Shown here piece by piece: positions 2,545 to 46,940 of a stretch of 64,000 nucleotides of DNA. Source of the DNA: Nocardioides glacieisoli. Its GTDB lineage: Bacteria > Actinomycetota > Actinomycetes > Propionibacteriales > Nocardioidaceae. A program made the translations under genes and the position numbers. The DNA is taken from the NCBI RefSeq assembly GCF_004137245.1, contig NZ_SDWS01000001.1, forward strand, positions 186,001 to 250,000, written 5' to 3'. The notes under the pieces were generated by a model, which saw nothing but the letters and a program-made list of their open reading frames with translations, was not told the DNA's origin and did not search any database. Position 1 is the first letter of the stretch; every line of letters begins with the position of its first letter.

Positions 2545-2554
2545 CTGATCCATC

Positions 2555-2991: not shown

Positions 2992-3001
2992 CGTCCTCCG
3001 C

Positions 3002-31769: not shown

Positions 31770-31842
31770 GCCCCCGTCGTCTAGCGGCCTAGGACGTCGC
31801 CCTCTCACGGCGGTAACGCCGGTTCAAATCCGGTCGGGGGTA
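31770..31842 (+). tRNA. tRNA-Glu (CUC), integration target
   Basis: The acceptor GCCCCCG pairs with CGGGGGT (terminal G-U), discriminator A. The anticodon loop CTCTCAC gives anticodon CTC, and the T-arm is GCCGG-TTCAAAT-CCGGT. The 3' 47 bases of the gene are part of the 48-bp repeat that is duplicated at 46893-46940, so the mobile element uses this tRNA as its attachment site and restores it at the left end. The integrase gene ends inside it on the opposite strand. Confidence 0.96.
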
Positions 31843-33102
31843 CGGCACCGAATTGGGGTCCTGACCAGCGGAAACGCTGGACAGGGCCCCTTCGGCATTT
31901 TGACCCACATCGGGCTGGGGCAACACTGGGGCAACAGCAGGATCGGCCTGGTCAACGATATGAAGCCGGGTACGACGCTCGCGCGCTGCGTCGCGGGCCC
32001 GGCCCAGCGCATCGCCGACCTCGTCGAACCGGTCCTCGAAGAGGTGACCGTAGGTGTCGAGGGTCATCGACGCCGAGCCGTGTCCCAGCATCTGCTGCAC
32101 GACCTTGACGTCGGCACCGCTGGCGATGGCTAGGCTCGCGGCCGTGTGCCTGAGCTCGTGCGGGTGGAGGTCGGGCACGCCGATGGCTCGGGCCGCTGTA
32201 CTGAATGCGGTGTGAAAGGTGCCCACCCGCAACGGCTGACCGTTGCGGATGCCAGCGAACACCAGGTCGTCCAGCTGCTTGCCCTCGATGTGGCGCCCGA
32301 GATCGCTGGCGAGGAACTGGGGGATCGGGACCTCGCGTCGCTGATGGGTCTTGGGAGTGCCCCAGACAAGCCCCAGCCCCTGAACGGGCGTCACCGACTC
32401 GGCGATGATGGCGCGGTTGCGGCGAAGGTCGAGCCTGCTGACCCGCAGCGCGGCCATCTCGCCGAAACGGACGCCGGTGTAGCCCAGGAACAGCACGACA
32501 AGCCGGTAAGTCTCGTTCGCTCGAGTGTCGAGGCTGCTGTGCTTGCTCGGATCATGGGGGTAGCCGGCCGCAGTTGCGAGGTCTTCGACCTGCTCATGTG
32601 TCAGGTAGCGGTGCTCGGGCTTGCGCACGCGCGGCAGGTTCACGCCACCAGCGACGTTGCGCGCCAACCGGGCGTCCTTGACGGCCATGTCGAGGATGAG
32701 GCTGAGCACGCGGTGGATCTTCTGGACGGTGGCGGGGGAGCGATGCAGCGCGAGTTCGCTGACCCACGCCTGTACGTCGCCGTGTGAGACGTTCGCGAGC
32801 CTGACGCGGTCCCACCTCGGGTGGACGTGCGTGCGCAGGATGCCCGCGTATCGCGACCGCGTGGTCGGCTTGAGGTGTGCTTGCCCCTCCAGCCAGAGTT
32901 CCGCCCACTCTCCGACGGTCACCTTCGCGAGCGCCGGGTCGACATAGGTGCCGGTGACCTTCGCGTTCTCGATACTGGCGAGAAATCGCTCGGCGTCGAC
33001 CTTGCGCGCGAAGGTCCTGTTGCGCTGGGCGCCCGCCGGGGTCCGATAGTGCGCGCGCCACGACGTTTGTCCGCTGCGCATGCGTTTCTCGATGCTAGCC
33101 AT
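31789..33102 (-). CDS. int: Tyrosine site-specific integrase of the mobile element
   Basis: A 437-residue phage-type integrase: an N-terminal arm-binding region (MASIEKRMRSGQTSWRAHYR), a SAM-like core-binding domain (KVTVGEWAELWLEGQAHLKPTTRSRYAGIL) and a catalytic domain with Arg in YTGVRFGEMAALR, HPHELRHTAASLAIASG (HxxR), MLGHGSASMT and the nucleophile Tyr in TLDTYGHL. The ATG at 33102 has a GGAGGAAGGAG site 7 nt upstream. The last codons (ending RRYRRERATS) are read antisense through tRNA-Glu and attL, so the C-terminus depends on whether the element is integrated. It lies downstream of the excisionase gene. Confidence 0.95.
   Translation of the reverse strand: MASIEKRMRSGQTSWRAHYRTPAGAQRNRTFARKVDAERFLASIENAKVTGTYVDPALAKVTVGEWAELWLEGQAHLKPTTRSRYAGILRTHVHPRWDRVRLANVSHGDVQAWVSELALHRSPATVQKIHRVLSLILDMAVKDARLARNVAGGVNLPRVRKPEHRYLTHEQVEDLATAAGYPHDPSKHSSLDTRANETYRLVVLFLGYTGVRFGEMAALRVSRLDLRRNRAIIAESVTPVQGLGLVWGTPKTHQRREVPIPQFLASDLGRHIEGKQLDDLVFAGIRNGQPLRVGTFHTAFSTAARAIGVPDLHPHELRHTAASLAIASGADVKVVQQMLGHGSASMTLDTYGHLFEDRFDEVGDALGRARDAARERRTRLHIVDQADPAVAPVLPQPDVGQNAEGALSSVSAGQDPNSVPYPRPDLNRRYRRERATS
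31796..31843. other. attL: left 48-bp attachment repeat
   Basis: This 48-bp sequence, starting GTCGCCCTCTCACGGCGG, is repeated exactly at 46893-46940. It covers the anticodon arm to the 3' end of tRNA-Glu plus one base. The left copy completes a functional tRNA gene. Confidence 0.95.
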
Positions 33103-33159
33103 GGTGGTGCTCCTTCCTCCGGGCTTCATCGTCGCTCGGGGATGTGACAGTGGCTCGTC

Positions 33160-33390
33160 TCATCGGCGGTCCTGTGGACGGTTGGTCTGTTCGGTGAGCC
33201 AGAGGACCAGGTCGGCTCTCCAGTAGCGGACGTGGCGGCCGACCTTGAAGGACCGGGGTCCGCAGCCGAGGTGGCGCCAGTAGCGCAGGGTGCCTTCGGG
33301 GACGCGGAGGAAGCGGCAGGCTTCCTGGAGGGTGAGCAGGTCGTCGCGGGAGTTCTGGCGGGGGCCTGGGACGTTGGGTTGTGCGGACAT
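33160..33390 (-). CDS. xis: Excisionase-like helix-turn-helix protein
   Basis: A 76-residue protein with a MerR/excisionase-type winged helix: LLTLQEACRFLRVPEGTLRYWRHLGCGPRSFKVGRHVRYWRADLVLWLTEQ. The ATG follows GAGGAGGACCCC. It lies 57 bp upstream of the integrase ATG in the same direction. It should bend DNA at the attachment site and direct excision, and might regulate the int promoter. Confidence 0.88.
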   Translation of the reverse strand: MSAQPNVPGPRQNSRDDLLTLQEACRFLRVPEGTLRYWRHLGCGPRSFKVGRHVRYWRADLVLWLTEQTNRPQDRR

Positions 33391-33765
33391 GGGGTCCTCC
33401 TCGTGGATGGTTCCGACGACGTTCGATGCCGGTCGTGGTGGGTGGTTGTCTGCGATCGATGGGTACGTGTCAGTTCCCACGGTGAGCGCCGGGGGCACCA
33501 ATTCACGCCCGGCCTGGCCCGCCCGTCCCCGGGACGGGCGTCCCTGTCTGGCGGCGTCTTCGCAGTTCAGGCGCCGCCCGTCCGAGAGTTTCAAGAATTC
33601 ATTCGCATGCTCCTCGCTGGGTGTCGTCGTGAACGACCCGTATGCGTTTAACAGCATCGGCTCTCAGGTACGCCGGAATCAGGGGGGAACCTGAGGTGGG
33701 AACCTCCCCGGGACGGCGTTTGCGCAGGTCAACAGGTTCCCCCACTCGTTGGCTGGACCGGCTTG
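33391..33765. promoter_or_regulatory. Control region between relaxase and excisionase with several inverted repeats
   Basis: No gene is seen. GCCCGTCCCCGGGACGGGC (33521-33539) is a perfect palindrome. GGGGGAACCTG (33683-33693) is the exact reverse complement of CAGGTTCCCCC (33733-33743), with a further GGGAACCT at 33699-33706 between them. The sequence AACCTGAGGT at 33688-33697 recurs in a palindrome upstream of the relaxase at 36637-36649. These are candidate binding sites for excisionase, integrase arms or a regulator. Confidence 0.6.
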
Positions 33766-36390
33766 TCAGAAGCCGATTCCCGAGGGTTGTGAGCTGGGCG
33801 GCCGGTACTGCGGGGCTGGGAGTCGTGGCGCTGGACGCGATCGGGCGGCCGCGCCGTAGCGGTCGATGGCGTCGACGACGGCCCGGCGCGCGTGCGCTGG
33901 TCCGAGGTCGGCACGGTCCCGGCCGAACACCTCGATCCACTGCCGGCGGGCATCGTCGAGGGACTCCGCGACGAGGTGGGAGGTGTTGCTGTGACGCCCT
34001 CGAGTCATGGCCACGTACGCCGCTGCGGCACCGGTGTGTTCACCGATCAAGACGTGGGCGCGGTCAACGGTGTCGCCCTGCGCGCCATGCACGGTGGTGG
34101 CGTAGGCGAGCTCGACGAACCGTGCCGCGTACTCGGCCGGGATCTCTCGATCACGACCACGGCCATGAAGGACGAGGCTGCCGTCGTCACCGACAACGGC
34201 CACGGTCCAGCTCTGTCGGTTCGCGACCTGCAGAGCGTGGTTGTTGCGGCGGGTCGCGACCCGGTCCCCAACCCCGATCGTCTCCCCAGCGCTGGTCGAG
34301 AGGAACCGGCCCTCGGTGCGATCGAGGCCCGGTCGCCGGTCGCGGATAGCGGCGTTGAGATCGGCCACCTGCTCCCGGGTGTCGGCCACGACGAGCTCGC
34401 CGATGGCTCCGGCGTCGGCGAGAGCGAAGGTACCTTCGACGTCGCTGGGGTGGATCACGATCTGACCTCGTCGCTGTAGGGCGTCGAACAGCGCGCCCGG
34501 ATCGTCACCGGTGCGCATCCGGAGACTGAGCGCGGCGTAGTCGGGGTCGGTGAACCGGTGCACCTTCTCCAATGTCACGACGGCACTCGGGTGCGCCCAC
34601 GCGAGTGCGTGATCGAGCACGCCGCCCCGGCCAACGGCGGGGAGTTGGTGGCGGTCCCCGACGAGCGCGATGCGGGCACCGGTCTCGTCCGCGATCGTGA
34701 ACAGCGCCCTGGCGGTGTCCTGGTCGAGCATCCCGGCCTCATCGACCAGCAGCAGGTCACCGACCTGCAGCCGTGCGGCCTCGGCGGGGGCGGGGTGTGG
34801 TTCACGGGTCCAGTGCCCGTCGACATCCCAGCACCAGCCGTGCTGTCGGATGAGCCAAGCCGCAGAGTGCCCGTCGGCGCCCGTCTCTGTAGTGGCAACC
34901 TCCGCGGCCTTCAACGTCGGCGTGACTACGACCAGCCGGTGCCCTTGGAGGGTGAGCATCTGTTGGGTGGTCCGCAGCGCGGTGGTCTTTCCGGCACCCG
35001 CAGCGCCTTCGACCACCACCAGCTGGCCGTCGCCGGCCAGGGCGCCCACCACCGCTGCTTGGGTGGCGTCGATCCTGACCAGTGCCCGCCCGCCCATGTG
35101 GGCCCGTCGGGCCGGCCGCGCGGCCCGGGTGGCGAACCGCGCGATGAGGTCGGCTTCAACGTCCAGAACCTGCGGCGAGGACAGCGACCGGACGTGCTCG
35201 GGCACATCGGGTCGCGACAGCAGCCCGACGCACCTTGCTGCCGCCCGAGCGGTGATGTCTTCGGCGAGCTCGACCCGCGCAGCCGTGCCGGCGAGCAGGC
35301 CGGTTTGCGCGAGGAGGACCTCGGTCCTCCCGCGAATGTCGGCCGTGTTCCACGCAGACCGCTTGCCGCCGAGGATGGAGACGACCAGCTCGGCCGCGGT
35401 GTCCCGGTCGATCCACCCCGGCCGCGTGCCGGGCAGCCGCAACGGGCCGGTGGGGTCTCGGTAGCCGAGGTCACGCAGCTCGGCGTTCCAGCGCTCCACG
35501 AGGTCGCGCCCGTTCGTGGGTACGACCTTGTCGGGACGCGCTTGAGCCCACGCCCGCCGATCCCACGCCTCCCGCAGCCGCAACCCCGGTTCCTCGCCCG
35601 GATGCTCGGACCGCCATTCGGCCTCGTACCGGTCGACATTGCGACGGATCTGCGCGGTCCGGGCACTGAAGGCGCCCGCGTACGGCGCCAGCTGCTGGAT
35701 CTCCCCGGACTCCGGGTCAAGCGATAAGCCGTACGCGGCGAGGGCCGTCCGGAACTGCGGGTCCGTCGCGACCGCTGCGTGCCCGATGCCATTGATCGCC
35801 TTGATGCTGTCCCTGATCCCGACCGAGTGCAGACCCCGCCACGTCCCGGCTGCCCAGACGCGGGCATTGATCTGCAAGTGAAGGTGACGATGCGGGTCAC
35901 CCGCCCGCGAGGTGTAGTGCCGGATCACTGCGGCCTCGATCCGCTCGACCGGCACCTGGACCTGGCGGTCGCGGGGCCCGACCCGGGTGGTCGCGTGCTG
36001 TGCGATCCAGCCGACGATCTCGGCGGCGGCTCTGTCCTGCGCGGCATCCAGTGCCGCGGAGACCTCAGGGTGCAGAGCCGCGGCCAGCGACCAGGTCTTG
36101 GGTCCGTTCACGGTGACCTCCACGAACCGCAGCGCGTTCGGGTCCTTGCGGAGTCGGCCCTTCGGTGTCCTCGATTCGATGTCGATCCCGGCCACCCACT
36201 CCTCATACGCATCGCCGGTCATCTCACCGGCGTGCTCGACGCCGTCCGGGGTCGCGGCCAGTCGGACGGCGACACCGGTGCCCTCATCGAGGTAGTAGTC
36301 ATCCGCACGGGATCGATCGCGCTCGACGTAGGCACGCGCCGCGTTCGCTGCGCCGCGGTAGAACTTCACGCCGCCATGCACCCGCACCAC
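33766..36390 (-). CDS. MobF-family conjugative relaxase-helicase (TrwC/TraI-like)
   Basis: An 874-residue protein. Residues 1-300 form the TrwC relaxase domain: a catalytic tyrosine pair in DRSRADDYYLDEGTGVAVRLA near residue 33 and the three-histidine metal site HRHLHLQINARVWA around residue 170. From about residue 430 follows an SF1 RecD2-like helicase: Walker A GAAGAGKTTALRTTQQML, Walker B LLLVDEAGMLD, GDRHQLPAVGRGG, and a C-terminal YATTVHGAQGDTVDRAHVLI plus YVAMTRGRHSNT. It nicks oriT and unwinds the transferred strand. It is the only transfer gene in the element and somewhat shorter than many actinobacterial TraA proteins. Confidence 0.93.
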   Translation of the reverse strand: MVRVHGGVKFYRGAANAARAYVERDRSRADDYYLDEGTGVAVRLAATPDGVEHAGEMTGDAYEEWVAGIDIESRTPKGRLRKDPNALRFVEVTVNGPKTWSLAAALHPEVSAALDAAQDRAAAEIVGWIAQHATTRVGPRDRQVQVPVERIEAAVIRHYTSRAGDPHRHLHLQINARVWAAGTWRGLHSVGIRDSIKAINGIGHAAVATDPQFRTALAAYGLSLDPESGEIQQLAPYAGAFSARTAQIRRNVDRYEAEWRSEHPGEEPGLRLREAWDRRAWAQARPDKVVPTNGRDLVERWNAELRDLGYRDPTGPLRLPGTRPGWIDRDTAAELVVSILGGKRSAWNTADIRGRTEVLLAQTGLLAGTAARVELAEDITARAAARCVGLLSRPDVPEHVRSLSSPQVLDVEADLIARFATRAARPARRAHMGGRALVRIDATQAAVVGALAGDGQLVVVEGAAGAGKTTALRTTQQMLTLQGHRLVVVTPTLKAAEVATTETGADGHSAAWLIRQHGWCWDVDGHWTREPHPAPAEAARLQVGDLLLVDEAGMLDQDTARALFTIADETGARIALVGDRHQLPAVGRGGVLDHALAWAHPSAVVTLEKVHRFTDPDYAALSLRMRTGDDPGALFDALQRRGQIVIHPSDVEGTFALADAGAIGELVVADTREQVADLNAAIRDRRPGLDRTEGRFLSTSAGETIGVGDRVATRRNNHALQVANRQSWTVAVVGDDGSLVLHGRGRDREIPAEYAARFVELAYATTVHGAQGDTVDRAHVLIGEHTGAAAAYVAMTRGRHSNTSHLVAESLDDARRQWIEVFGRDRADLGPAHARRAVVDAIDRYGAAARSRPAPRLPAPQYRPPSSQPSGIGF

Positions 36391-36918
36391 CCGCCTCCAC
36401 GGCGTCCGTCGACAACCAACGGACCCCTAGAAATGCCGCGTGGGCCGCCCGACCACGGGCGACCCATCTACGAACATTCGTAGCATGTGTGCCGCTCGAA
36501 AAGGAGGGGTTGGACGAGTAGGACGCCAGACATCTGGAGGCGATCTTGGGGACCGTCGATGGTCAACGAGCGTCAATCATTCGAGGGAACGGGCGGGCGG
36601 CGACGTCGGCGAACGGTGGCATCAGTAGGTGTCCGCGAACCTGAGGTTCCGTAGAGGGCGCGCCCGTCCTGGGTGGGAGACCGGGCGGACCATAAGGGAC
36701 GAGCGTGTTGTCACACACCGTCGCCGGTCTCGTAGTTCCAGAAGTGGTTCGGCTTGCGGGACGGGCGCTGATCCCGACCTCGACTGGCTAGTGGCAACTG
36801 CCTCGCAGCCGAGTCGAGCCACGGCGAGCCGGCCACCATTTGTTTACCGGATCTGCCGAGTTGAGGATGCGTTCGATCAGTTGCCGCAATCAGCCCGATC
36901 GAGTGGCGTCGAAAAGAC
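36391..36918. other. Non-coding region upstream of the relaxase; candidate oriT and promoter region
   Basis: About 530 bp without a convincing gene. CTACGAACATTCGTAG (36468-36483) is a 16-bp palindrome 78 bp before the relaxase ATG. GAACCTGAGGTTC (36637-36649) is another palindrome whose AACCTGAGGT core recurs at 33688, downstream of the relaxase. CCGGATCTGCCGAG at 36848-36861 is a copy of the cargo-separating motif. MobF origins of transfer usually lie beside the relaxase gene, so oriT is expected here or in 33391-33765; the nic site cannot be identified by eye. Confidence 0.45.
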
Positions 36919-37626
36919 TCACCTCACCAGACGGCCGTCGGCGATGGGGACGATTCGGTCGCAGCGGGCCGCGACGGTCTCGTCGTGAGTGGCGAGCACG
37001 ACGGTGACGCCGCGGGTCTCGCGGATTCCGAACAGCAGGTCGAGGATCTCGGCGCCCGTGGTGGAGTCGAGGTTGCCGGTGGGCTCGTCAGCCACCAGCA
37101 GGCGAGGGTCGTTCATCAGGGCGCGGGCGATGGCGACGCGTTGGCGCTGCCCGCCGGAGATCTGGGACGGCAGCGCGTCCTCGCGGCCTGCGAGCCCGAC
37201 GTCGTCGAGCAAGGAGCGGGCGCGGTCCTTGGCGTCGTACGTCGTCTTGTAGGGCAGCACGGGGAGCATCACGTTGTCGCGGGCGGTCAGTGCGGGAAGC
37301 AGGGCGAAGTGCTGGAAGACGAACCCGACGGTGCGGCGGAACGCGACCAGCTCTGCTCGGGGCAGGGCGGTGACGTCGCGCCCGTCGCAGACGATCGAGC
37401 CGGCATCGGGTTCGTCCATGCCGCCGAGCAGGTGCAGCAGCGTCGACTTGCCCGAACCAGAGGGGCCGACCAGAGCGATCACCTCGGCGGCGTCGATATG
37501 GAGATCGACCCCGTCAAGTGCGCGGACGGTGACTCCGCCGGGGGTGATGTAGGACTTCTCCAGCCCGGTGGCGTCGATCTGGTAACCGGTCGTGATCGGC
37601 TCGGGCAATGCCGTCGCTGAGGTCAT
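36919..37626 (-). CDS. MacB/LolD-type ABC transporter ATP-binding protein (mobile-element cargo)
   Basis: A 235-residue ATPase: Walker [20 protein letters not shown]-loop [18 protein letters not shown], signature [19 protein letters not shown], Walker [14 protein letters not shown] and H-loop LATHDETV. This sequence type pairs with FtsX-like permeases. The partner permease is transcribed divergently from an 80-bp shared region rather than in the same operon. Likely exports a peptide, antibiotic or lipoprotein, or transmits a mechanical signal. Confidence 0.93.
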
Positions 37627-37705
37627 AGTTCAGGTTACCCTCGAACTGCAGCACGCTGAGGCGAGCAGATCGCGGCGATGCAGCAGCGGTCGCCAAAGGG
37701 GTCTC

Positions 37706-40486
37706 ATGTTCCGGGTTGCACTGGCACAGGCGATGCGGCGGCGTGCGCGCGGGCTGGCGGTGGTGTTGGCGATCGTGATGGCGTCCGTGTCGTTCGCGTT
37801 GTTGACCTCTGCGGTGGCGACTTCACGACTGGACGTCCAGGGCACGGTGGAGGAGAACTACCGCACGGCGTACGACATCCTGGTGCGCCCGGCCGGCACG
37901 GCCTCGGACCTGGAGAAGTCCGAGGGTCTGGTGCAGCAGAACTATCTGTCGGGGATCTATGGCGGGATCACGATGGACCAGCTGCGGCAGATCCGGGCGT
38001 TGCCAGAGGTCGAGGTGGCGGCGCCGGTCGCGATGATCGGCTACATCTTCGCCACGGTGGACGTGCCAGTGGGGATCAACGAGGTGCTGACCGACGACCT
38101 GGATCAGTTGTACCGGTTCACCCCCATCTGGACGACTGACCGCGGGCTGAGCCAGTTGCCGGACCAGACTTCGTACGAGTACTTCACCCGCCGCCCGCTG
38201 AACTGGGACACGCCGAACGACACGGTCCCTCCGCAGCTGCGCAGGCCAAGTACGGGTGGGCGCGTGCAGGTGTGCGAGGAGTGGAGACAGCAGGACGAAC
38301 GGCTGCCTCAGCGCAACGCCTTCGACTACTCCCGGATGTCCCAGCTCGGGTGCGACGGATCCAACCCACCCCGACCCGGCAGAGGCGCCGACCAGTTGGA
38401 GTTGGGGCAGATCGGGTTCAACTTCCCCTACCAGTTTCCGATGCTGATGGCCGCTATCGATCCGGTGCAAGAGGCCAGGCTGGTTGGGTTGGACGACGCA
38501 GTCGTGTCCGGTCGGTACCTCACCGCACGGGACCAAACCGTTACCCCGGAGCTGATAGGTAAAAGGTTCACCAAGTCCGAGGTGCCGATCCTGATGGTGA
38601 ACAGGCCCTTGACCGATGACCGGGTCGAGTTGCGGGTGGAGCGGCTGGATGTTCCACCAGCCGCGGAACTTGTGGACAGGTTGAGTGGACCGAGCCCGGC
38701 CGACTGGGCCGCTCGGCTTCCAAGTCAGCCGGTCAAGACGGTGCGCGTCAACGCTCGGCAGGCCTACGACCGGTTGCTTCGCGAGTACGCCGCGGGCGCC
38801 GCGCAGTACTCGCCGGACTACTGGACGCTCGGTTCAGCTGCATACGAGCGCGCGGGCTCGGGGGCGCTGCGGGTTGTCGAACAGCCGCCCTCTCGCCGGG
38901 CCGTCTTCCGGAACTTCTATCAAGGTGGCTACCGGGCCCCTGCACCATCAGGTGATGTCAACTTCCGGCGCCTGGCGAAGCCGTTGCAGACGAGCAGCCA
39001 GATCGTGAACGGCGTGCTGGGGTCCCCCTACCTAAAGCAGGTGGGAGTGTTCGACCCGGACCTGATCGAAGGATTCAGTGAGCTGTCCGAGGTGCCGTTG
39101 ACGACCTACTACCCGCCCGACACGGCGCCCGCGGATGCCCGGTCCAGGGAGTTGCTGAAGGGGCGGTCGTTGCTGCCGAACGCGAACCTGGGCGGCTACC
39201 TGCAACAGCCGCCGATGATCTTGACCACGATCAAGTCCCTGGAAACGTTCAAGGACCCCACCTACTACCCCTTCGTCAAACCCGAGGACACCGAGGCACC
39301 GGTGAGCGTGATCCGGATCCGCGTGGCCGGAGTCACCGGTGCCGACGATGAGAGTCAGACCCGCGTCCGCCTGGTGGCGGAGCGGATCGCGCGGGAGACC
39401 GGGCTGACCGTGGACATCACCATCGGCTCCTCCCCCACCCCGCAGACCATCGTGCTCCCGGCCGGTCACTTCGGGCGCCCCGAACTCACCTTGACCGAAG
39501 GCTGGGTCGTCAAGGGCGTCAGTGTCAGACTGCTGTCCAGCATCGACAAGAAGTCCTTGACCCTGTTCGGGCTCGTCCTGATCGTGTGCGTGTTGTTCAT
39601 GGGCAACGCCACCCTCGCCGCGGTCCGCACCCGCCGCGCCGAGCTCGGCGTACTGGCTTGCCTGGGTTGGTCGGCCCGTCGGATCTTCGTCATGCTCCAA
39701 GCCGAACTCCTCCTGACCGGGCTGATCGCCGGTACCCTCGGCACCGCCCTAGCGTCGGCGGTCGTCGGTCTCTCCGGGTTGGACGTCACTTGGTGGCACC
39801 TCGCCCTGATCACCCCCGTCGCGACCCTTCTTGCGGCATTGTCTGGGGTGATTCCCGCTTGGCGCGCCTCCCACGCCACCCCCATCCAGGCCATCCGCCC
39901 CGACGTACGCGGACCCAAGCGCGCCGCCACCGGTGTCCGCGGCATCACCACCCTCGCCCTCGTCGGCCTGCGCCGCCTCCCCGGCCGCACCCTGCTGGGT
40001 GCAACCTCGCTGTTCATCGGCGTCTGCGCTCTCTCGGTCCTGCTCGCCGTCCAACAAGCCTTCCAAGGCGGCGTCACCGGCACCGCCCTCGGCGACGTGA
40101 TCGCCGTCCAGGTCCGCGGCGTGGACTACCTCGCCGCCGCCGTGACCATCGCACTCGGGGCGTTCGCGATCGCCGACATCACTTACCTCAACATCTCCGA
40201 ACGCACCGCCGAGATCGGCACCCTGCGCTCAACCGGCTGGACCGAGAACCACGTCCGCCGCCTCTTCGCCGTCGAATCCCTCGCCACCGCCACCCTCGGC
40301 GCCGTCGCCGGCGCCGTCGTCGGCGTCACCGCCGCCGCACTGCTCCTCCCCATCCCCCTGACCACCAGCCTCACCGCCGCCGCCATCGCCACGGCAGGCG
40401 GAATCGTTGCCGCCATGGTCGCCGCCACCGCACCCCTGTCCCGCCTCACCCAGCTCGCCCCCGCGACCGCCATCGTCACCGAATAG
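37706..40486 (+). CDS. Large FtsX-like ABC permease (mobile-element cargo)
   Basis: A 926-residue protein starting MFRVALAQAMRRRARGLAVV. The first TM segment (LAVVLAIVMASVSFALLTSAV) leads into an external domain of about 570 residues, rich in Pro/Tyr and containing two cysteines (RVQVCEEW and QLGCDGS). Six or more C-terminal TM segments in two FtsX units follow (LTLFGLVLIVCVLFMGNATLAAVRTRRAELGVLACLGWS and ITYLNISERTAEIGTLRSTGWTENHVRRLFAVES). Such permeases act with the MacB-type ATPase encoded divergently. Base composition shifts from lower GC in the external domain to very high GC in the C-terminal half, hinting at a mosaic gene. Confidence 0.9.
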   Translation: MFRVALAQAMRRRARGLAVVLAIVMASVSFALLTSAVATSRLDVQGTVEENYRTAYDILVRPAGTASDLEKSEGLVQQNYLSGIYGGITMDQLRQIRALPEVEVAAPVAMIGYIFATVDVPVGINEVLTDDLDQLYRFTPIWTTDRGLSQLPDQTSYEYFTRRPLNWDTPNDTVPPQLRRPSTGGRVQVCEEWRQQDERLPQRNAFDYSRMSQLGCDGSNPPRPGRGADQLELGQIGFNFPYQFPMLMAAIDPVQEARLVGLDDAVVSGRYLTARDQTVTPELIGKRFTKSEVPILMVNRPLTDDRVELRVERLDVPPAAELVDRLSGPSPADWAARLPSQPVKTVRVNARQAYDRLLREYAAGAAQYSPDYWTLGSAAYERAGSGALRVVEQPPSRRAVFRNFYQGGYRAPAPSGDVNFRRLAKPLQTSSQIVNGVLGSPYLKQVGVFDPDLIEGFSELSEVPLTTYYPPDTAPADARSRELLKGRSLLPNANLGGYLQQPPMILTTIKSLETFKDPTYYPFVKPEDTEAPVSVIRIRVAGVTGADDESQTRVRLVAERIARETGLTVDITIGSSPTPQTIVLPAGHFGRPELTLTEGWVVKGVSVRLLSSIDKKSLTLFGLVLIVCVLFMGNATLAAVRTRRAELGVLACLGWSARRIFVMLQAELLLTGLIAGTLGTALASAVVGLSGLDVTWWHLALITPVATLLAALSGVIPAWRASHATPIQAIRPDVRGPKRAATGVRGITTLALVGLRRLPGRTLLGATSLFIGVCALSVLLAVQQAFQGGVTGTALGDVIAVQVRGVDYLAAAVTIALGAFAIADITYLNISERTAEIGTLRSTGWTENHVRRLFAVESLATATLGAVAGAVVGVTAAALLLPIPLTTSLTAAAIATAGGIVAAMVAATAPLSRLTQLAPATAIVTE

Positions 40487-40841
40487 GTATCGACGCGGAG
40501 GGGTGTTCATGTGCGGGCTTCTGCCTGTGGGACCACCGGAAAGGCCCCTTCAGGCCTGACCTTTCTGGCGCTGCCCGCCAACGTCACGGAACGCAGAACG
40601 ACGTCGATCACCAACATCTGGGTGTGCCGCGATGAGCACGTGAGGCGGTCGGGGCGAGGACCGTCGGCTCAGACGGGCTCGCGATGATTACTACTGGATC
40701 CACTACTGAACCCGCTAACTACACCGAAGCACGGTGGTCAAGCCCCAGCTGCACGAAGGCGCGGGAGCGCCCGGATCTGCCGCGTTGACGGCGGCCACGC
40801 TCGCGCGGATCTGCTGATGACAGCACTCCTCAGAACAGTTG
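40487..40841. repeat. Intergenic segment with two copies of the cargo-separating motif
   Basis: No gene is supported here apart from the out-of-frame tail of the disrupted HAD gene. A degenerate motif copy, AACATCTGGGTGTGCCGCG, lies at 40613-40631, and a good copy, CCCGGATCTGCCGCGTTG, at 40771-40788. Confidence 0.5.
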
Positions 40842-41533
40842 TCAGGGGGTGACCCCTTGGGTTGGTTTGGAGTCCGAGAAGTCCAGTTCGTGTAGCGACT
40901 GAACTCGCGCACACCCGGCCGTGACATAGGCATCGTCGCGATCAAGCAGCACGGCGGAAAGGCCGATGGCGAGCGCGCCAAGGACGTCCTGGTCGAGGGA
41001 TTTCCTACCATCAGGGCCTCCTCGGCGTCGACACCAAGATGCGCTACGGCGTGGATGAAGGCGCGCCGGTCGGGCTTGCCAGCCGGAAGGACGGACGAAG
41101 CGAGTAACACGTCGATCTCGTCGCTCAGCCGCAGTCGGTCCATCTTCAACCGCTGCTGGTCCTCGTCGCCGTTTGTCAGTACGGCAACCTTGAGCCCCGC
41201 CTCCCGAGCCCGACGAAGCGTTGGCACGGCGTCATCGAACACCACCCAACCAGCCTCGTACCGCTGTTGGAAGGCGGCAATGGCATCGTCGGCACGACGG
41301 TCATCCAGGGCGACGGCGAGGAACTCGCGCACCCGCTCTCGGCGCATCTGGACAAAGGTCACCTCACGCCGGGCGTACCGCGCGTACTGAGTCTCCGACA
41401 CCTGCGTCCACCGCGTAGCCACATCGGGATCGGTGATGCCATGTTCTTCGGCCCAGCCAACGACAGCGCCAGCGGTTGCCGATGCCTGGTCGACCAGCGT
41501 GTCATCGAGGTCAAAGAGGACGGCGCGGAGCAT
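40842..41533 (-). pseudogene. HAD-superfamily phosphatase, frameshifted before motif IV
   Basis: From the ATG at 41533 the frame encodes a HAD hydrolase: motif I LFDLDDTLVDQ, motif II VAVLTNGDEDQQ and motif III lysine in LPAGKPDRRAF. At ALMVG (about 40997-41005) the frame changes: the expected GDSLDQDVLG continuation is found only in the next frame (SLDQDVLGALAIGLSAVLLDRDDAY), running to a stop at 40842-40844. A one-base loss removes the motif IV aspartate, and the unshifted frame instead runs on to 40715 as unrelated sequence. Either a decayed cargo gene or a sequencing error. Confidence 0.8.
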
Positions 41534-41570
41534 TGCCCGATCCTTTCACCCGCGCGGACGCCCCGGATAA

Positions 41571-41590
41571 CGTCCAGATCTGCCGCGTTG
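41571..41590 (+). repeat. Cargo-separating motif copy
   Basis: AACGTCCAGATCTGCCGCGT is at 41569-41588, between the HAD pseudogene and the first anti-sigma/sigma module. One base (A for G) differs from the fullest copies at 42858 and 44979. Confidence 0.7.
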
Positions 41591-41725
41591 CGCGTGAGCT
41601 CATCTGCCGATACGCGGATGTGCGGACGTGCGGACGGCGTTTTTCCCAACCTCGGGCGTCCTGCTGCACAGGGGTAGGGGTAGGTGAGGTAAGACAACCG
41701 TTCGGTCCGTTCACCCGTGTTTCTA

Positions 41726-41749
41726 AGTGTCCCCGTTTCGAGGGACACT
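41726..41749 (+). promoter_or_regulatory. Inverted repeat upstream of the first anti-sigma gene
   Basis: AGTGTCCC (41726-41733) and GGGACACT (41742-41749) form an 8-bp stem with an 8-nt loop, 19 bp before the ATG of the membrane anti-sigma-like gene. It may be a 5'-UTR hairpin or an operator. Confidence 0.55.
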
Positions 41750-41767
41750 GGTGAGTGGAGGAACGTC

Positions 41768-42352
41768 ATGAAGACCGAAATCGACTGGGGGCACGAACTC
41801 GATCGCTCGTTTGCCATTGAGGAGCCCATTGCCGTCGAGCGCTACGTGGCGCGAGGTCACCGGGCGCTACGCCACCGTAGGACGTTCACAACGATTGCTG
41901 CGGCAGCCACGTTGGTTGCTGCCACAATGACATGGGCGGCGCTGCCAGCGCTCTACTCGTCGGGCGACTCCGTGGTCGCGGGCGAGGGGCCGGGAGCGTC
42001 GCCGCCAGCCTCGTCGGATGTAGCGAGACCTTCTCGCTTCCGCACCGCGTCGCCGCAGGAACTGGAGAGGATGCCGGACGGAGTGCCAGTGACGTTGCCC
42101 GAGAGTGGCGACGCGTTCATTGTTCGACCCGGATGGCGAGTAGACCGCAGCATCGAGTCAATCGGCGAAGCGGGATGGACCGCGCGGTGGGCGATACAGG
42201 TCGTCCAGGAACGCTCAGACACAGAGCGATGGGTGACGATTGACTGGCTCGCGCAGGAGACTGTCGCACTCAATGTCGAGGCACCAGGGCAGCGGTATGC
42301 AGACTTCGAGGAGTTTGCCGCCGATGTGATCACCGATTTCGGAGCCCCGTGA
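41768..42352 (+). CDS. Single-pass membrane protein, probable anti-sigma partner
   Basis: A 194-residue protein: cytoplasmic N-terminus of about 35 residues (MKTEIDWGHELDRSFAIEEPIAVERYVARGHRALRHRR), one TM segment (TFTTIAAAATLVAATMTWAALPALY) and a C-terminal extracytoplasmic domain of about 130 residues. A GGAGG site precedes the ATG. Its stop overlaps the start of the following ECF sigma gene (GTGA), so the pair is translationally coupled. Identification as anti-sigma rests on topology and position; no zinc-binding HxxxCxxC motif is visible. Confidence 0.65.
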   Translation: MKTEIDWGHELDRSFAIEEPIAVERYVARGHRALRHRRTFTTIAAAATLVAATMTWAALPALYSSGDSVVAGEGPGASPPASSDVARPSRFRTASPQELERMPDGVPVTLPESGDAFIVRPGWRVDRSIESIGEAGWTARWAIQVVQERSDTERWVTIDWLAQETVALNVEAPGQRYADFEEFAADVITDFGAP

Positions 42353-42846
42353 ATCGCGACGAGCGCGACGCCCAGTTCACCGATTTCGTAGTTGGTCGGT
42401 TGCCCCACCTGCGCCGGATCGCGTACGCCCTTACTGGCGACCGGCACCATGCAGAAGACCTGCTGCAAACAGCCCTCGCCAAGTTGTACGTCGCTTGGCC
42501 TCGCATCCACCACGAAGGCGGCGAGGAGGCATACTGCCGACAGATCTTGGTCCGCACGAACATCGACGACTTGCGAAGAAGTTGGCGGCGCGAGTGGCCG
42601 ACCGAAGTCCTGCCCGAGCACGCCGCCGATGCCGCGCCTTCCATCGAGGAGCGTTCTGCCCTCTTCGATGCGCTACAAGCCCTCCCAGAGCAGCAGCGCA
42701 AAGTGGTCGTGCTCCGACACTGGCTCGGCCTATCGGTGCGAGAAACGGCATCCGAACTGGGCATCAGCGACGGCACGGTCAAGAGCCACAGCAGCCGAGG
42801 ACTGTCGGCGCTTGAGGCGTTGCTCGTGCAGGAGCGGCACGACTGA
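42349..42846 (+). CDS. SigE-family ECF RNA polymerase sigma factor
   Basis: A 165-residue sigma factor. Region 2 is FVVGRLPHLRRIAYALTGDRHHAEDLLQTALAKLYVAWPRI (residues 13-53), and region 4 is LPEQQRKVVVLRHWLGLSVRETASELGISDGTVKSHSSRGLSAL. The SigE/ECF41-like actinobacterial subgroup is suggested by the short linker and the DDLRRSWRREWPTE segment. It is coupled to the upstream membrane protein and followed 12 bp later by the separating motif at 42858. GTG start within the GTGA overlap. Confidence 0.88.
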   Translation: MNRDERDAQFTDFVVGRLPHLRRIAYALTGDRHHAEDLLQTALAKLYVAWPRIHHEGGEEAYCRQILVRTNIDDLRRSWRREWPTEVLPEHAADAAPSIEERSALFDALQALPEQQRKVVVLRHWLGLSVRETASELGISDGTVKSHSSRGLSALEALLVQERHD

Positions 42847-42857
42847 GGCCACCCCGC

Positions 42858-42879
42858 AACGTCCGGATCTGCCGCGATG
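42858..42879 (+). repeat. Cargo-separating motif copy (full)
   Basis: AACGTCCGGATCTGCCGCG occupies 42858-42876, immediately after the first sigma module and 35 bp before the stop of the opposing anti-sigma gene. This is the reference form of the motif. Confidence 0.75.
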
Positions 42880-42913
42880 TGGGAGGCCGTGGGGGCCTTG
42901 GGACTAGCACTGA

Positions 42914-43591
42914 CTACTCGTTGACCGTGGACGGACCAGGGGTCGCGGACTCGGTCGCGGCCGGGGCCTGCGGCCAGTAACTAGGCACGGTGATGGTGTC
43001 GAAGATGTCCGCACCGTCGGACCGCCAGCGCACTTCGGTGGCGAGGACGTACAGGGTGCGGTTGTCGTAGGACCAAGCCGTCATAACGGGGCTATTGGCT
43101 GTGCATCGACCCGAATACGTGCTGGTGCCCGGCGTGTCGTGCGCAACCTCGACGAACTGCGGATCGTCGGGCTGGCAGGTACTCATTAGGTCGGCTACGA
43201 CGTCCAGTCCGTTCTCCAGCGCCGTCTGCGGGTCATTCGCGACGGCCATGAGGACGGGGCAACTGGTGTCGGGTTCGGTGGCATCGCCGACGCATACCTG
43301 GCTCACAGATGGCCGGTTGAGAACCTCCCAGCCGGGCGGAAGGTCGAACTCTGCTCCGTTGAGGTTCTCTGCGTTGAACGGGACGTCGGCGGCTACCTGA
43401 TCGGGATTGCGATTGTTCATAGGTCCAACCACGGCATAGACGATGGCGATGGACACCAAGGCGGCGGCAGCGCCCGAGACACGGCGGAGCTTCGTGCGCC
43501 GGTTGCCCCGTGCGCGGACATCGTGCGGTGTGGGCAGGTCGTGCTCCCAACGCGTGTCGCGGGCACTCTCTAGCAGGTCAAGGTCGTTCAT
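42914..43591 (-). CDS. Single-pass membrane protein, probable anti-sigma partner (second module)
   Basis: A 225-residue protein with a short cytoplasmic part (MNDLDLLESARDTRWEHDLPTPHDVRARGNRRTKLRR), one TM segment (VSGAAAALVSIAIVYAVVGPM) and an outside domain of about 165 residues with four cysteines (SQVCVG, TSCPVL, STCQPD, SGRCTA) likely forming disulfides. It overlaps the upstream sigma gene by 4 bp. The layout mirrors the neighbouring module at 41768-42846 but in the opposite direction and with sigma first; the outer domains are not obviously related. Confidence 0.65.
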   Translation of the reverse strand: MNDLDLLESARDTRWEHDLPTPHDVRARGNRRTKLRRVSGAAAALVSIAIVYAVVGPMNNRNPDQVAADVPFNAENLNGAEFDLPPGWEVLNRPSVSQVCVGDATEPDTSCPVLMAVANDPQTALENGLDVVADLMSTCQPDDPQFVEVAHDTPGTSTYSGRCTANSPVMTAWSYDNRTLYVLATEVRWRSDGADIFDTITVPSYWPQAPAATESATPGPSTVNE

Positions 43592-44076
43592 GTAGTTGCT
43601 CCTCCTAGAGCAAGCGCTTCACGCAGCGCATCGCGGCCCCGAGAGAGGTGGGACTTGACCGTCCCTTCGGGCATACCAAGCAGCTTCGAGACGTCCCGCA
43701 CAGGCATGTCCTCGAAGTAGTGAAGGACCAGGACATCGCGTTGCGCTGGGGTCAACTTGGCCAACGCCTGGTGCAGGTGCAGCAACTCATCCGGGGGGCG
43801 GATGTGCTCGCGTGACCTCGCCTCTAGTCCCAGCCGCGCTGCGGCTTCTCGCAGGGTGCGCCGCCAATCCCGAATGGCTAGCCTCCACGCCACCGTGGTC
43901 ACCCACCCCACCGGATCGTCGTTCTCCAACCGATCCCACCTGCGCCAGGCCCGTACGAATGCTTCCTGCACGGAGTCCTCCGCACGTGTGGCGTCGCCTG
44001 TGCGCAGGTAGATGTTGCGCACCAGTCTCGGGGCCCGCGCGGCGTAGAACGCATCGAAACTCTCTGAGTTGCTCAT
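43588..44076 (-). CDS. ECF RNA polymerase sigma factor (second module)
   Basis: A 162-residue sigma factor. Region 2: FYAARAPRLVRNIYLRTGDATRAEDSVQEAFVRAWRRWDRLE; region 4: LTPAQRDVLVLHYFEDMPVRDVSKLLGMPEGTVKSHLSRGRDALREAL. The ATG at 44076 has GGCAGGAGGCGC directly upstream. It is a different ECF type from the one at 42349, with a longer linker. The anti-sigma-like gene follows with a 4-bp overlap. Confidence 0.9.
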   Translation of the reverse strand: MSNSESFDAFYAARAPRLVRNIYLRTGDATRAEDSVQEAFVRAWRRWDRLENDDPVGWVTTVAWRLAIRDWRRTLREAAARLGLEARSREHIRPPDELLHLHQALAKLTPAQRDVLVLHYFEDMPVRDVSKLLGMPEGTVKSHLSRGRDALREALALGGATT

Positions 44077-44192
44077 GCGCCTCCTGCCGTTGGTAGACCC
44101 TCTAGCCACCTATAGCCCCACGGGGGCCATCCAGGTTGCAACCAGCATCAACAATCCAAACCATCATCAGCGCCAGGTTCCGTATGGCGCGA

Positions 44193-44212
44193 GACGTCTG
44201 GATCTGCCGCGA
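44193..44212 (+). repeat. Cargo-separating motif copy
   Basis: GACGTCTGGATCTGCCGCGA at 44193-44212 differs in two positions from the reference. It abuts the stop codon of the UPF0158 gene and lies between that gene and the second sigma module. Confidence 0.7.
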
Positions 44213-44899
44213 TCAGGTCGACTTTTGAGCACCCACGGCGGCCGGCAACGCGGGGGTGAAGCCTTCAGTGGCGAGCCAGGCTCGGGCGCGTCCTCGCCGC
44301 CGTTCCGCGGAGTACAGATACCAGCGATCTTGAAGGTCGAGCCAGCGTGTCAGCTCGTCTCTGAAACGGCGGAACGCGCCCCGACCCTCCAACGTCCGCG
44401 CCATCCGGTCGGCAAGGTCTGGTTCGGCGACCCCGGCGACGAACCGCTCCATGTCGCGGTACCCGGCGCGTGAGCCTTCGCTCACGACCCACAGCCAGCG
44501 CTCGCCGTCGTCGAGATCTTCCTCATCCTCGCTCTCGATCCCGTACTCAAAAGATCGCTCGGGCCACACCTCGCCGGTGTGGAGATCGATGCGGCCACCG
44601 CCCGCGACCGGGTCTCCCTCGAGCACATCGACGAGTTCGTCGAGATCGACCGGCAAGCTCCTTAGCAACGGGGACGGCCCAGCACCGAGTCGCGCCGTCA
44701 ATGCACCAACCAAATCCTCGTCGCCCTCCCAGTCCCTCTCGCGCAATTCGGTCACGCACCGCTGAGCCAGTTCGCGCGCTCCACCGATGTTCTGAACCAG
44801 AGCCGCCTGCAGCCCATCACCGATCAGCTGGAGCGCGTGACCTGGCCAGGGACCAGCGCGGAGGAGCGACACCAGCGCCTGTTCATCCGCTGCGAACAC
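44213..44899 (-). CDS. UPF0158-family protein
   Basis: A 228-residue protein. The C-terminal half shows the UPF0158 pattern: DDGERWLWVVSEGSRAGYRDMERFVAGVAEPDLADRMARTLEGRGAFRRFRDELTRW followed by WYLYSAERRRGRARAWLATEGF. The N-terminal half (FAADEQALVSLLRAGPWPGHALQLIGDGLQAALVQ) looks like an added helical domain. Function unknown. The GTG at 44899 is used because the frame is closed upstream: the natural-looking start ATG at 44938 is followed two codons later by TAG, after which RERLREFRAAV continues the likely original N-terminus. Confidence 0.7.
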   Translation of the reverse strand: MFAADEQALVSLLRAGPWPGHALQLIGDGLQAALVQNIGGARELAQRCVTELRERDWEGDEDLVGALTARLGAGPSPLLRSLPVDLDELVDVLEGDPVAGGGRIDLHTGEVWPERSFEYGIESEDEEDLDDGERWLWVVSEGSRAGYRDMERFVAGVAEPDLADRMARTLEGRGAFRRFRDELTRWLDLQDRWYLYSAERRRGRARAWLATEGFTPALPAAVGAQKST

Positions 44900-44978
44900 G
44901 GCGGCGCGAAACTCTCGTAGCCGCTCTCGCTAGGACATGTCGGCATTCTTCCCATCGCTGCCGTTTCGCGCACTACTC

Positions 44979-44997
44979 GCGGCAGATCCGGACGTTC
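44979..44997 (-). repeat. Cargo-separating motif copy (reverse orientation, full)
   Basis: On the minus strand the sequence reads AACGTCCGGATCTGCCGCG, identical to the copy at 42858. Its first bases overlap the TGA stop codon of the gene at 44996. Confidence 0.75.
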
Positions 44998-45454
44998 AGC
45001 CCACGTGCACGGTCTCCACCACGCGATCGTCGCCATAGCTGAGATTCAACCGACCCGGGTTGAAGTCGGCAGTCGCCATAGCCTCCGGCTCATGCGCTCG
45101 CACGAACCATCCGGCTGAACTCGCCTGGGTGGCTGCCTCGTCTACGTCGAGTCCCACGAGTCGCTCAAACTGGAACTGATCGTCGCGTCCGGCGACGCCC
45201 TGTGGGGGCTGGGTAGTCCAGGACTCACCTCGTCGAGGCTCCACGAAAACCGTGACCGGCGTGCCGTCAGATAGTGCCACTGGATGTTGGGCGAAGTAGT
45301 CGGCCGCCGCCGCCATGTCCCGCGGGGCAACTTCGAACTTGATAGCGCGGTCCTCTGGCCCCATCACGTACCAGGTGAACGGAAGATCCCGGCCGCCAAG
45401 ATACGCAGCGACCTCGCTGACGTCACGAAACGACGGCATGTTCCAGACTCGCAC
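44996..45454 (-). CDS. Protein with I78/potato-inhibitor-like C-terminus, unknown N-terminal domain
   Basis: A 152-residue protein. The C-terminal 60 residues (FERLVGLDVDEAATQASSAGWFVRAHEPEAMATADFNPGRLNLSYGDDRVVETVHVG) follow the pattern of small peptidase-inhibitor I78/potato inhibitor I domains: G-x-x-x-D-x-A, a GW-x-VR strand, R-x-NL and a final RV-x-x-V-x-VG. The first 90 residues (PSFRDVSEVAAYLGGRDLPFTWYVMGPEDRAIKFEVA) are unrecognised. Start GTG 45454 or ATG 45439. The separating motif lies directly on both sides, making this a single-gene unit. Confidence 0.65.
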   Translation of the reverse strand: MRVWNMPSFRDVSEVAAYLGGRDLPFTWYVMGPEDRAIKFEVAPRDMAAAADYFAQHPVALSDGTPVTVFVEPRRGESWTTQPPQGVAGRDDQFQFERLVGLDVDEAATQASSAGWFVRAHEPEAMATADFNPGRLNLSYGDDRVVETVHVG

Positions 45455-45455
45455 A

Positions 45456-45469
45456 TCGGCAGATCCGGT
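45456..45469 (-). repeat. Cargo-separating motif copy (reverse orientation, core only)
   Basis: Minus-strand CCGGATCTGCCGAT just upstream of the start of the I78-like gene; the AACGT part is degenerate (TTACC). Confidence 0.55.
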
Positions 45470-45618
45470 AAGTCAGACGCACGCCGACAGGCGGCGACAA
45501 GGCGCACCTTCGACGGCCCTGTCGGCGATCCCGCTACGGACCACCGGCCCTGGGAAGTCAGTCAGCGCGGTGCACTTGGTTGTCGGTACGAGGACACCCC
45601 GCGATTGCCGACGTTAGT

Positions 45619-46197
45619 TCAGCAGCCTGAAGCGTTCCGTGACGCTCTGAGCCAGGTGAGCGCGGCCTCTCGTGCGGCGACGTGTTCACTTGGAATCGTC
45701 CGCAGGCGCGATGCGATGAGGTCGGCGTCGACGAGATTTGCCTTGAGCAACGCGATGACGAAGTTGCGGTCCTTCTCGCGTAGAGCAACCAGCTTTGCGA
45801 CACAGAGGTCCTCCTTGTCGAGGCACCAGCCGGTGAAGCGTGGCTCGCCGCCTGCCGCCGCGGTGTTGGTGTTCTGCACCTTGACCAGTCGGTTGCGCCA
45901 GCCGTCGGGGAGGACTGCCGTTTCCAGGTCGACGCCATCGATGCTGAAGCCGTGCAGTTCCTCGAATGGCGAGAGTTCGCCGGCCACACCTTCGATCAGG
46001 TCGGCCAGTCGCGCGGTCTCATCGTTGGTCTCGGCCATAGGCAGGATGTCGACCTCGATAGACATCGTTGCGGCCGCGGGCAGTTGTGACTCGTCGTACG
46101 TGCCGAGGATGGCCTGCGAGCCGACAACGATGACCTCGGACTGGTGGATGATCTGGCAGGCCGTGCGGATGGCGTGCTCCAGTTGGTCTCGTCGCAT
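45619..46197 (-). CDS. Nucleotidyltransferase-like protein, probable toxin
   Basis: A 192-residue protein with a minimal nucleotidyltransferase fold: VIVVGSQAILGTYDES near residue 23 and the acidic strand MSIEVDILPM at about residue 46, then a helical C-terminal part containing CLDKEDLCVAKLVALREKDRNFVIALLKANLV. The pattern resembles DUF6036/AbiEii-type proteins, which transfer nucleotides to RNA or protein in type IV or VIII toxin systems. The ATG lies 1 nt after the stop of the XRE-type gene, the usual antitoxin-first order. Confidence 0.75.
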   Translation of the reverse strand: MRRDQLEHAIRTACQIIHQSEVIVVGSQAILGTYDESQLPAAATMSIEVDILPMAETNDETARLADLIEGVAGELSPFEELHGFSIDGVDLETAVLPDGWRNRLVKVQNTNTAAAGGEPRFTGWCLDKEDLCVAKLVALREKDRNFVIALLKANLVDADLIASRLRTIPSEHVAAREAALTWLRASRNASGC

Positions 46198-46198
46198 C

Positions 46199-46717
46199 TC
46201 AGCCGACCAGTTGCAGGACTTCGCGGCGCTGCTCGTCGGGGAGCAGCCCGGACATAGGGGAGACCTCGCGCATCTCGATCGAGTCTCGGTCGAGACCCGT
46301 GAGGACGCGGTGCAGTCCGGGGAGGTCGCTGCGCTCGACGAGCTGGCGCCAATGGTCGAGATTTCGTTCGTGCGGCTGGCCGGTCACGTTGTCGCCGAGG
46401 CGGTCGAGGTTGCGCTCGATCGTCGGCCGCCACTCCTCGAGGCTCAGGTGATTCAGGAGCGTGGAGAGTCGCCGGTGCAGTTGCCAGGAGCGGCGTTCGG
46501 ACCGGGTCACTTGGGGGACGACGGGGCGTCGTACGACCTCAAGGCGAAAACCCATGCAGGACAGAAGACGGTCGAGCTGGTCGTCGCTGAGGTCGACCTT
46601 GCCGGAGAGGAAGCCGCTGATGCTCGGTTGCCGCACACCGCTGAGCCGGGACAGGCCGGACTGTGTGGTGCTCGTCTCGAGCATCACCTCGCGCAGCACG
46701 TCACTCCTACTCGTCAT
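46199..46717 (-). CDS. XRE-family DNA-binding protein, probable antitoxin
   Basis: A 172-residue protein. The N-terminal HTH is SDVLREVMLETSTTQSGLSRLSGVRQPSISGFLSGKVDLSDDQLDRLLSCMGFRLEVV; the remaining 110 residues are helical and probably contact the toxin. The ATG at 46717 is chosen because an AT-rich palindrome that includes a -10 box lies directly upstream. Expected to autorepress the pair and neutralise the nucleotidyltransferase. Confidence 0.8.
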   Translation of the reverse strand: MTSRSDVLREVMLETSTTQSGLSRLSGVRQPSISGFLSGKVDLSDDQLDRLLSCMGFRLEVVRRPVVPQVTRSERRSWQLHRRLSTLLNHLSLEEWRPTIERNLDRLGDNVTGQPHERNLDHWRQLVERSDLPGLHRVLTGLDRDSIEMREVSPMSGLLPDEQRREVLQLVG

Positions 46718-46723
46718 GAACGC

Positions 46724-46744
46724 AGTATAGCAAAGAATGCTATA
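46724..46744 (-). promoter_or_regulatory. Antitoxin operator overlapping the -10 box
   Basis: TATAGCA (46726-46732), spacer AAGAA, TGCTATA (46738-46744) is a perfect 7+7 inverted repeat. Read on the minus strand it contains TATACT (46729-46724), a good -10 hexamer 7 bp before the antitoxin ATG. Confidence 0.75.
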
Positions 46745-46892
46745 GGCGAGCGGGTCGCGGTTGGGGTTCTCGGGCAACACTGGGGCAACACGAGGTCCAG
46801 AAACAGCCGGAGATGACCAACGACGCCCAATCGTCCATTGTCGCTCTGACCTGCACTTTCACTGATCTCCAACGTCGTCCGGTGACCCTTCG

Positions 46893-46940
46893 GTCGCCCT
46901 CTCACGGCGGTAACGCCGGTTCAAATCCGGTCGGGGGTAC
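46893..46940. other. attR: right 48-bp attachment repeat (tRNA-Glu fragment)
   Basis: Exact copy of 31796-31843. Only the 3' part of tRNA-Glu is present, so this is a non-functional tRNA remnant marking the right end of the element. The original tRNA terminator follows at 46951. Confidence 0.95.

Follow-up and report, generated by a model that had tools for sequence, protein, structure and literature searches.

Integrons are the textbook platform for the capture of gene cassettes. The pdif or xrs modules of Acinetobacter plasmids, served by XerC and XerD, offer a further point of comparison. Excision of xrs modules has been tested and was not seen (PMC11705084). A survey with IntegronFinder 2.0 reported no complete integron in Actinobacteria (PMC9024848), and Smyshlyaev et al. 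2021 (PMC8138268) distinguish, among the simple tyrosine recombinases, an integron-like subgroup whose catalytic domain has an insertion. Here, we analysed a 64,000-nt stretch of Nocardioides glacieisoli DNA (GCF_004137245.1, NZ_SDWS01000001.1, 186,001-250,000 of the forward strand; the window hereafter) from a genome of 4.58 Mb in 36 contigs. Our results indicate that this DNA holds part of a system that works like an integron or a pdif-module system, with a recombinase and a site of its own. In the coordinates below, C denotes a contig of N. glacieisoli, G a Nocardioides genome and L a locus that was read; L009 is the N. glacieisoli array at C11:508-528k, L021/L061 the N. currus array, and G117 is N. 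lacusdianchii.

The array of the window lies in an integrative element (31796-46940) that is bounded on either side by a directly repeated 48-bp copy of the 3' end of tRNA-Glu. The two copies of this repeat (31796-31843 and 46893-46940) are 100% identical, the tRNA-Glu gene occupies 31770-31843, and an Rfam search of the window returned tRNAs only. The element encodes a 446-aa tyrosine integrase (31789-33129, minus strand; PF00589, PF14659), which is likely the enzyme for integration at the tRNA and not the cassette recombinase, and a MobF relaxase (33766-36390, minus strand; NF041492, 118 bits vs. a cut-off of 100). The first site of the array, of a type that we call backbone, was identified by PWM at 36842-36869 on the plus strand (GTTTACCGGATC-TGCCGA-GTTGAGGATG) and corresponds to TTACCGGATCTGCCGATGAGCG sites at L009:9283 and L059:335. 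L009 and L011, too, have relaxase homologues near their first site (BLAST synteny). In N. glacieisoli, the array starts near the MobF relaxase gene in three related elements (window, L009, and L011), and in two of the three the start is a backbone-type site (window 36842, L009:9277). This site is possibly the entry (attI-like) point, in which case conjugation would let the arrays spread.

Downstream of the first site, cassettes and sites alternate. An ABC cassette (36870-40612), delimited by its ORFs and the bounding sites, holds an ATPase gene (36919-37626, minus strand) and a permease gene (~37592-40486, plus strand) and is followed by plus-strand sites at 40613-40640 (AACATCTGGGTG-TGCCGC-GATGAGCACG) and 40766-40793 (AGCGCCCGGATC-TGCCGC-GTTGACGGCG, which has a further unit at 40806). 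An earlier note on this DNA had recorded a degenerate copy at 40613; a copy is present there, but it is a good full-length site with a PWM score of 21.3 under a matrix trained on other genomes. Next comes a HAD hydrolase cassette (40794-41568; gene 40868-41533, minus strand; PF00702, E 7e-23). Motif and PWM both mark the plus-strand sites at 41569-41596 (AACGTCCAGATC-TGCCGC-GTTGCGCGTG), 42858-42885 (AACGTCCGGATC-TGCCGC-GATGTGGGAG), and 44193-44220 (GACGTCTGGATC-TGCCGC-GATCAGGTCG). The first two of these enclose an ECF sigma factor cassette on the plus strand (41597-42857; sigma gene 42349-42846; PF08281, PF04542) with a membrane-protein-like ORF (~41768-42352) upstream of the sigma gene, and the last two enclose another ECF sigma factor cassette with a partner ORF (42886-44192, minus strand; PF08281). 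The UPF0158 cassette (44221-44968, minus strand; PF03682) has inward-pointing sites on either side, the second being AACGTCCGGATC-TGCCGC-GAGTAGTGCG at 44969-44996 on the minus strand (motif, PWM). In the window, the third codon of the UPF0158 gene is a stop (upstream of 44899) where L009 and L059 read through, and therefore the gene is either interrupted or starts from an internal GTG. The last cassette (44997-45445, minus strand) holds a small ORF (44996-45454) whose TGA stop overlaps the closing site, a backbone-type site at 45446-45473 on the minus strand (ACTTACCGGATC-TGCCGA-TGTGCGAGTC; core motif, PWM). The ORF has no Pfam match, which leaves the I78-like label proposed earlier for this gene unsupported. 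We note that the UPF0158 cassette, flanked by inward-pointing sites, marks a switch of site orientation from plus to minus in four arrays (window 44221-44968; L009:9874-10683; L059:6770-7579; L089:9364-10154).

Allowing up to three mismatches, the 19-base motif has 7 copies in the window vs. 0.11 expected, and none of 100 shuffles reached 7. The copies are at 40766-40784, 41569-41587, 42858-42876, and 44193-44211 on the plus strand and at 44978-44996 and 37983-38001 on the minus strand, with a weak one at 28607 (plus); core-only copies were found at 36848 (plus) and 45457 (minus). The five main and two core-only positions of the earlier note were thus recovered, with offsets of a few bases. 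Its statement that all copies lie between genes holds for nearly all of them, the exception being 37983-38001 within the ABC permease ORF, which is probably a chance coding sequence. Across the genome of N. glacieisoli, the motif clusters in five places, namely the window element, C11:513-521k, C11:739-741k, C33:12.5-14.5k, and C11:1-1.5k, and it is likewise arrayed in other species of Nocardioides. The exact 19-mer was found in 36 stretches among 84,980 species genomes, the majority from Nocardioides and others from Micropruina, Kribbella, Dactylosporangium, Phytohabitans, Micromonospora, Cellulomonas, and Streptosporangiaceae; a handful of matches in non-actinobacterial genomes may be chance. 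PWM scans for the site covered the retrieved loci only. Within 26 array loci, 17% of the sites were inside coding-like ORFs by a rough ORF criterion, vs. 64% of the array sequence, and the median spacing from site to site was 782 bp. We looked for a motif that is equally common in coding sequence and for module borders that lie off the motif, and found neither.

The repeat is real but longer than the ~19 bp first proposed. An alignment of 211 sites showed conservation over ~28 bases starting at AAC (AACGTCCGGATCTGCCGCGATGAGNGCG), of which the 19 bases are a part. The unit reads AACGTCCGGATC-TGCCGC-GATGAGNGCG, that is, two 11-bp imperfectly inverted arms flanking 6 bp. When the same 211 sites were searched for dyads across centres and spacers, the 11-6-11 arrangement scored best (5.63; mean 3.09, sd 0.52), with arms ACGTCCGGATC and GATGAGNGCGC around TGCCGC and a consensus symmetry of just 7/11. 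A spacer of 4 scored nearly as high (5.60), in agreement with a second form of the site, CGGATC-TGCC-GATGAGCGG. Full sites are frequently two tandem units 22 bp apart (AACGTCCGGATCTGCCGCGATGAGTGCGCGGATCTGCCGATGAGCGG). Single hybrid units, with the left arm from the first unit and the right arm from the second, are common and are what recombination at the core would leave behind. The geometry of the site is Xer/dif-like, and the AAC...GTT ends, which the earlier note had likened to attC, are accounted for by a dif-like 11-6-11 site. A dif identity was itself considered and rejected, the sequence being unlike the candidate dif of the genome (C31:82841, CCGATAACTGACATTATG), its best match to a dif query. 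Folding of 111 sites with DNA parameters gave no general hairpin signal (mean z of -0.63 vs. -0.32 for random windows); strong folding was seen in only two perfect palindromes (L060:9265-9318 and L043:1120-1173).

The modules are gained and lost as units. Using BLAST with window positions 40700-45600 as the query against 216 Nocardioides genomes, we found that homology of the window modules stops at the motifs and that modules recur singly in other species. The second ECF sigma cassette stands alone in N. lacusdianchii (C49:160434-161783; 95% identical, query 2161-3513), where the homology ends at motifs on both sides. The UPF0158 module recurs in G186, G117, and elsewhere in N. glacieisoli, and the small-ORF module occurs as a single unit in G007 (query 4280-4762, 83%) and, with less exact borders, in G030 and G128. 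The earlier note had asked whether strains differ by clean gain or loss of a module between motif copies, and such differences were found between the syntenic arrays of N. glacieisoli L009 and N. lacusdianchii. Their flanks are 83-98% identical and enclose three insertions or deletions, two in N. lacusdianchii, which measure ~2.1 and ~3.6 kb and comprise several cassettes, and a third of ~665 bp in N. glacieisoli, and all ends of the three fall at motif copies. Considering 31 segments shared between arrays, many of which overlap and repeatedly compare a small set of cassettes, UPF0158 in particular, 89 of 122 ends were within 40 bp of a site, vs. a mean of 1.2 and a maximum of 7 ends in 500 runs of shifted-site controls under the identical filter. 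Genes for the recombinase, the relaxase, and IS elements, being conserved, dominated the unfiltered test and left it weak (21% vs. 7%); with them masked, it became strong against the shifted sites. Lone modules, homology that ends at the motif, and syntenic indels support the proposal that the motif is a module-adding recombination site outside classical integrons.

A candidate enzyme is encoded outside the window, inside the L009 array. It is a simple tyrosine recombinase of 303 aa (C11:521109-522017), and a 308-aa tyrosine recombinase, 80% identical at the DNA level, is encoded in the middle of the N. currus array (L021/L061:2165-3091). The array recombinases have core-binding and catalytic domains only (PF13495 and PF00589, both over the cut-off). 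In this they resemble the simple tyrosine recombinases, no arm-binding domain being found, but they differ from the integron-like subgroup (PMC8138268) in that no counterpart of its insertion was seen. In alignment A1, R155, K181, H245, R248, and H271 are invariant and Y280 is nearly so, in line with the catalytic residues of the family. The best relatives are XerC and XerD, all scoring far below their cut-offs. Relatives of at least 71% identity were detected in 16 of 147 Nocardioides genomes, and a ~46% subfamily in some of the others. A matrix built from other loci gave 3-20 sites for most 20-kb neighbourhoods of the former group (the exceptions, L065, L067, L068, L071, and L074, have 0 or 1) and 2 site matches in 260 kb for those of the ~46% subfamily; most copies of 72% identity or more have sites around them. 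At least 5 sites (5-22) were present in 6/6 genomes with the 85-100% form vs. 9/131 genomes without the recombinase, an association drawn from related species that are not independent. For the many arrays in which the 20 kb read contained no recombinase, we have to suppose that the enzyme acts in trans or that a different one is responsible. Beyond Nocardioides, the gene in Micropruina (70%) runs off the end of its contig and is 1.3 kb away from a site, and a search of PLSDB plasmids gave a single 42% match. Close upstream of the recombinase gene there is a backbone-type site in L009 (13012) and L059 (9214). The sites that adjoin the gene point away from it (L009, L059, L061, and L063), on both sides where both have sites. 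In L089 (6007-7067), the recombinase gene beside the array, a possible pseudogene, is broken over two reading frames.

Taken together, we consider it likely that a tyrosine recombinase acts on a ~28-bp double-stranded site of which the motif is the core, that the modules are cassettes with one site each, and that the 303-aa enzyme is the most likely cognate recombinase. The Xer-like recombinase beside the arrays would then probably be what moves the cassettes. A cassette of one or two genes would carry one site, presumably as a circular intermediate, and would integrate by recombination with a site already in the array; strand exchange would take place in the TGCCGC centre, with the 303-aa enzyme as the putative catalyst. 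Arrays would grow as genes separated by sites mostly in the same orientation, and a cassette could be lost by recombination between neighbouring sites. Arrays without a recombinase, such as that of the window, might be served in trans by the enzyme at C11:521109-522017. Two single-base differences, at junctions J1 and J3, point to the ATCTGCCG stretch as the place of exchange and away from the AAC end. This location is only suggestive, considering that subsequent mutation could give an equal pattern. The attC-like alternative, with the crossover at AA^C, was also considered and is disfavoured by the same differences.

Other explanations need to be weighed against this one. The arrays share with pdif/xrs modules the ~28-bp 11-6-11 sites at module borders and an Xer-like enzyme. 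It is conceivable, but in our view unlikely, that the sites are pdif-like, that host XerC and XerD move the cassettes, and that the adjacent recombinase is a passenger. The dif-like geometry would fit, as would the XerC- and XerD-like genes on the chromosome, the Xer proteins as best structure and NCBIfam matches of the recombinase, and the many arrays without a recombinase nearby. However, the site does not resemble the only good dif-like candidate that the genome offers, and XerCD is expected in all these genomes, whereas arrays occur in only some and the number of sites tracks the special recombinase. The arrays also differ from pdif/xrs modules in that they encode a distinct recombinase inside, are long, have sites mostly as direct repeats, and are located on chromosomal integrative elements. 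We regard as quite improbable that homologous or illegitimate recombination swaps the modules, with the motif a dispersed intergenic repeat that marks borders merely as shared sequence. That different boundaries have the motif in common, that inverted copies flank the UPF0158 unit, and that the motif occurs in 34-bp tandem repeats agree with such exchange, but ~28 bp is short for RecA, the conservation has dyad geometry, and the copies are strongly clustered, co-localise with a dedicated recombinase, and are near-absent around the ~46% subfamily. A REP-type repeat, an alternative raised in the earlier note, resembles the site as a short dispersed intergenic sequence. REP/RAYT repeats would be palindromic hairpins spread genome-wide between core genes; the present sites lack a general hairpin-forming tendency, are clustered, are confined to accessory arrays, and bound modules.

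The similarities to integrons are more extensive: small gene cassettes are arrayed with a short recombination site between them, are gained and lost as site-bounded units, and have a tyrosine recombinase gene in or beside the array, and many arrays have no recombinase, as in CALINs. A classical integron with unusual attC sites would also find some support in the AAC...GTT ends and in the strongly folding L060 and L043 palindromes. We nonetheless hold this to be very improbable. In a search with the IntI model (TIGR02249), the array recombinase scored 63.7 bits vs. a cut-off of 265, and no protein of N. glacieisoli exceeded the cut-off. The IntI matches at C11:521184-521963 form two stretches that leave model positions 181-236 uncovered, with only ~39 bases of the gene there, and alignment A1 has no extra insertion that would be a counterpart of the IntI-specific catalytic one. 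The site differs from attC as a ~28-bp dyad with no general hairpin, J1 and J3 put the crossover centrally and not at G^TT, and the arrays hold genes in both orientations and run in two polarities. Integron identity was rejected on the IntI score and on the absence of attC-like folding of the sites. Lastly, the motif could represent the terminal repeats of small, MITE-like non-autonomous transposons, one per module, an idea that suits the inward-pointing inverted copies of the UPF0158 unit. It is scarcely credible given that the other modules of the window share their bounding copies, which are direct repeats, that target-site duplications are absent from the junctions read, and that between species the homology stops at the site on both sides.

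Returning to the putative dedicated recombinase and its double-stranded site, we are inclined on balance to view the system as an actinobacterial equivalent of the integron, with an Xer-derived dedicated recombinase, a double-stranded 28-bp site, and cassette arrays, that evolved independently of IntI and attC. We place it as a variant within the tyrosine-recombinase cassette systems, with a fair chance that it should be ranked as a separate class. A search of the open literature, with most subscription journals and preprints outside its scope, gave no description of it. Actinobacteria, reported to be without complete integrons, would thus appear to possess their own means of swapping genes. 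If true, this would be a second such platform, built on another enzyme and on a site of the ordinary double-stranded kind, implying that cassette capture evolved more than once; it would also bring to light a reservoir of accessory genes for which the software that finds integrons was not designed, and could provide a simple gene-addition tool for actinomycetes. With the site matrix and the recombinase sequence, the system is directly testable.

In several arrays, an IS110-type element (PF01548, PF02371) interrupts the site at its centre, with CGGATCTG on one side and CCGATGAG or CCGCG on the other. The element was delimited at CGGATCTG^CCGATGAG in L098:10689-12134, L099:8188-9632, and L105:2417-3871, and its left ends were also found in L059, L033, L088, and L107. 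IS1111 elements target the attC sites of integrons (PMC11187229), and an IS110-type element entering an array site is a further likeness to integrons; the insertions lend independent support to the site. Some minor observations concern the arrangement of site copies. The palindromes at L060:9265-9318 and L043:1120-1173 are near-perfect over 54 bp and are built from two inverted sites; the one in L060 is near a recombinase, with no further strong site in the 20 kb read, and is possibly an empty platform. Tandem repeats of 34 bp (CCGGATCTGCCGCGTTGAGGGCGGCTACGCTCG) with a site core in each were found at L102:9995-10140, and further ones in L104, L105, and G159. In the window itself, outside the element (8416-8751), a weaker site adjoins 315 bp with 91% identity to the L010 array region.
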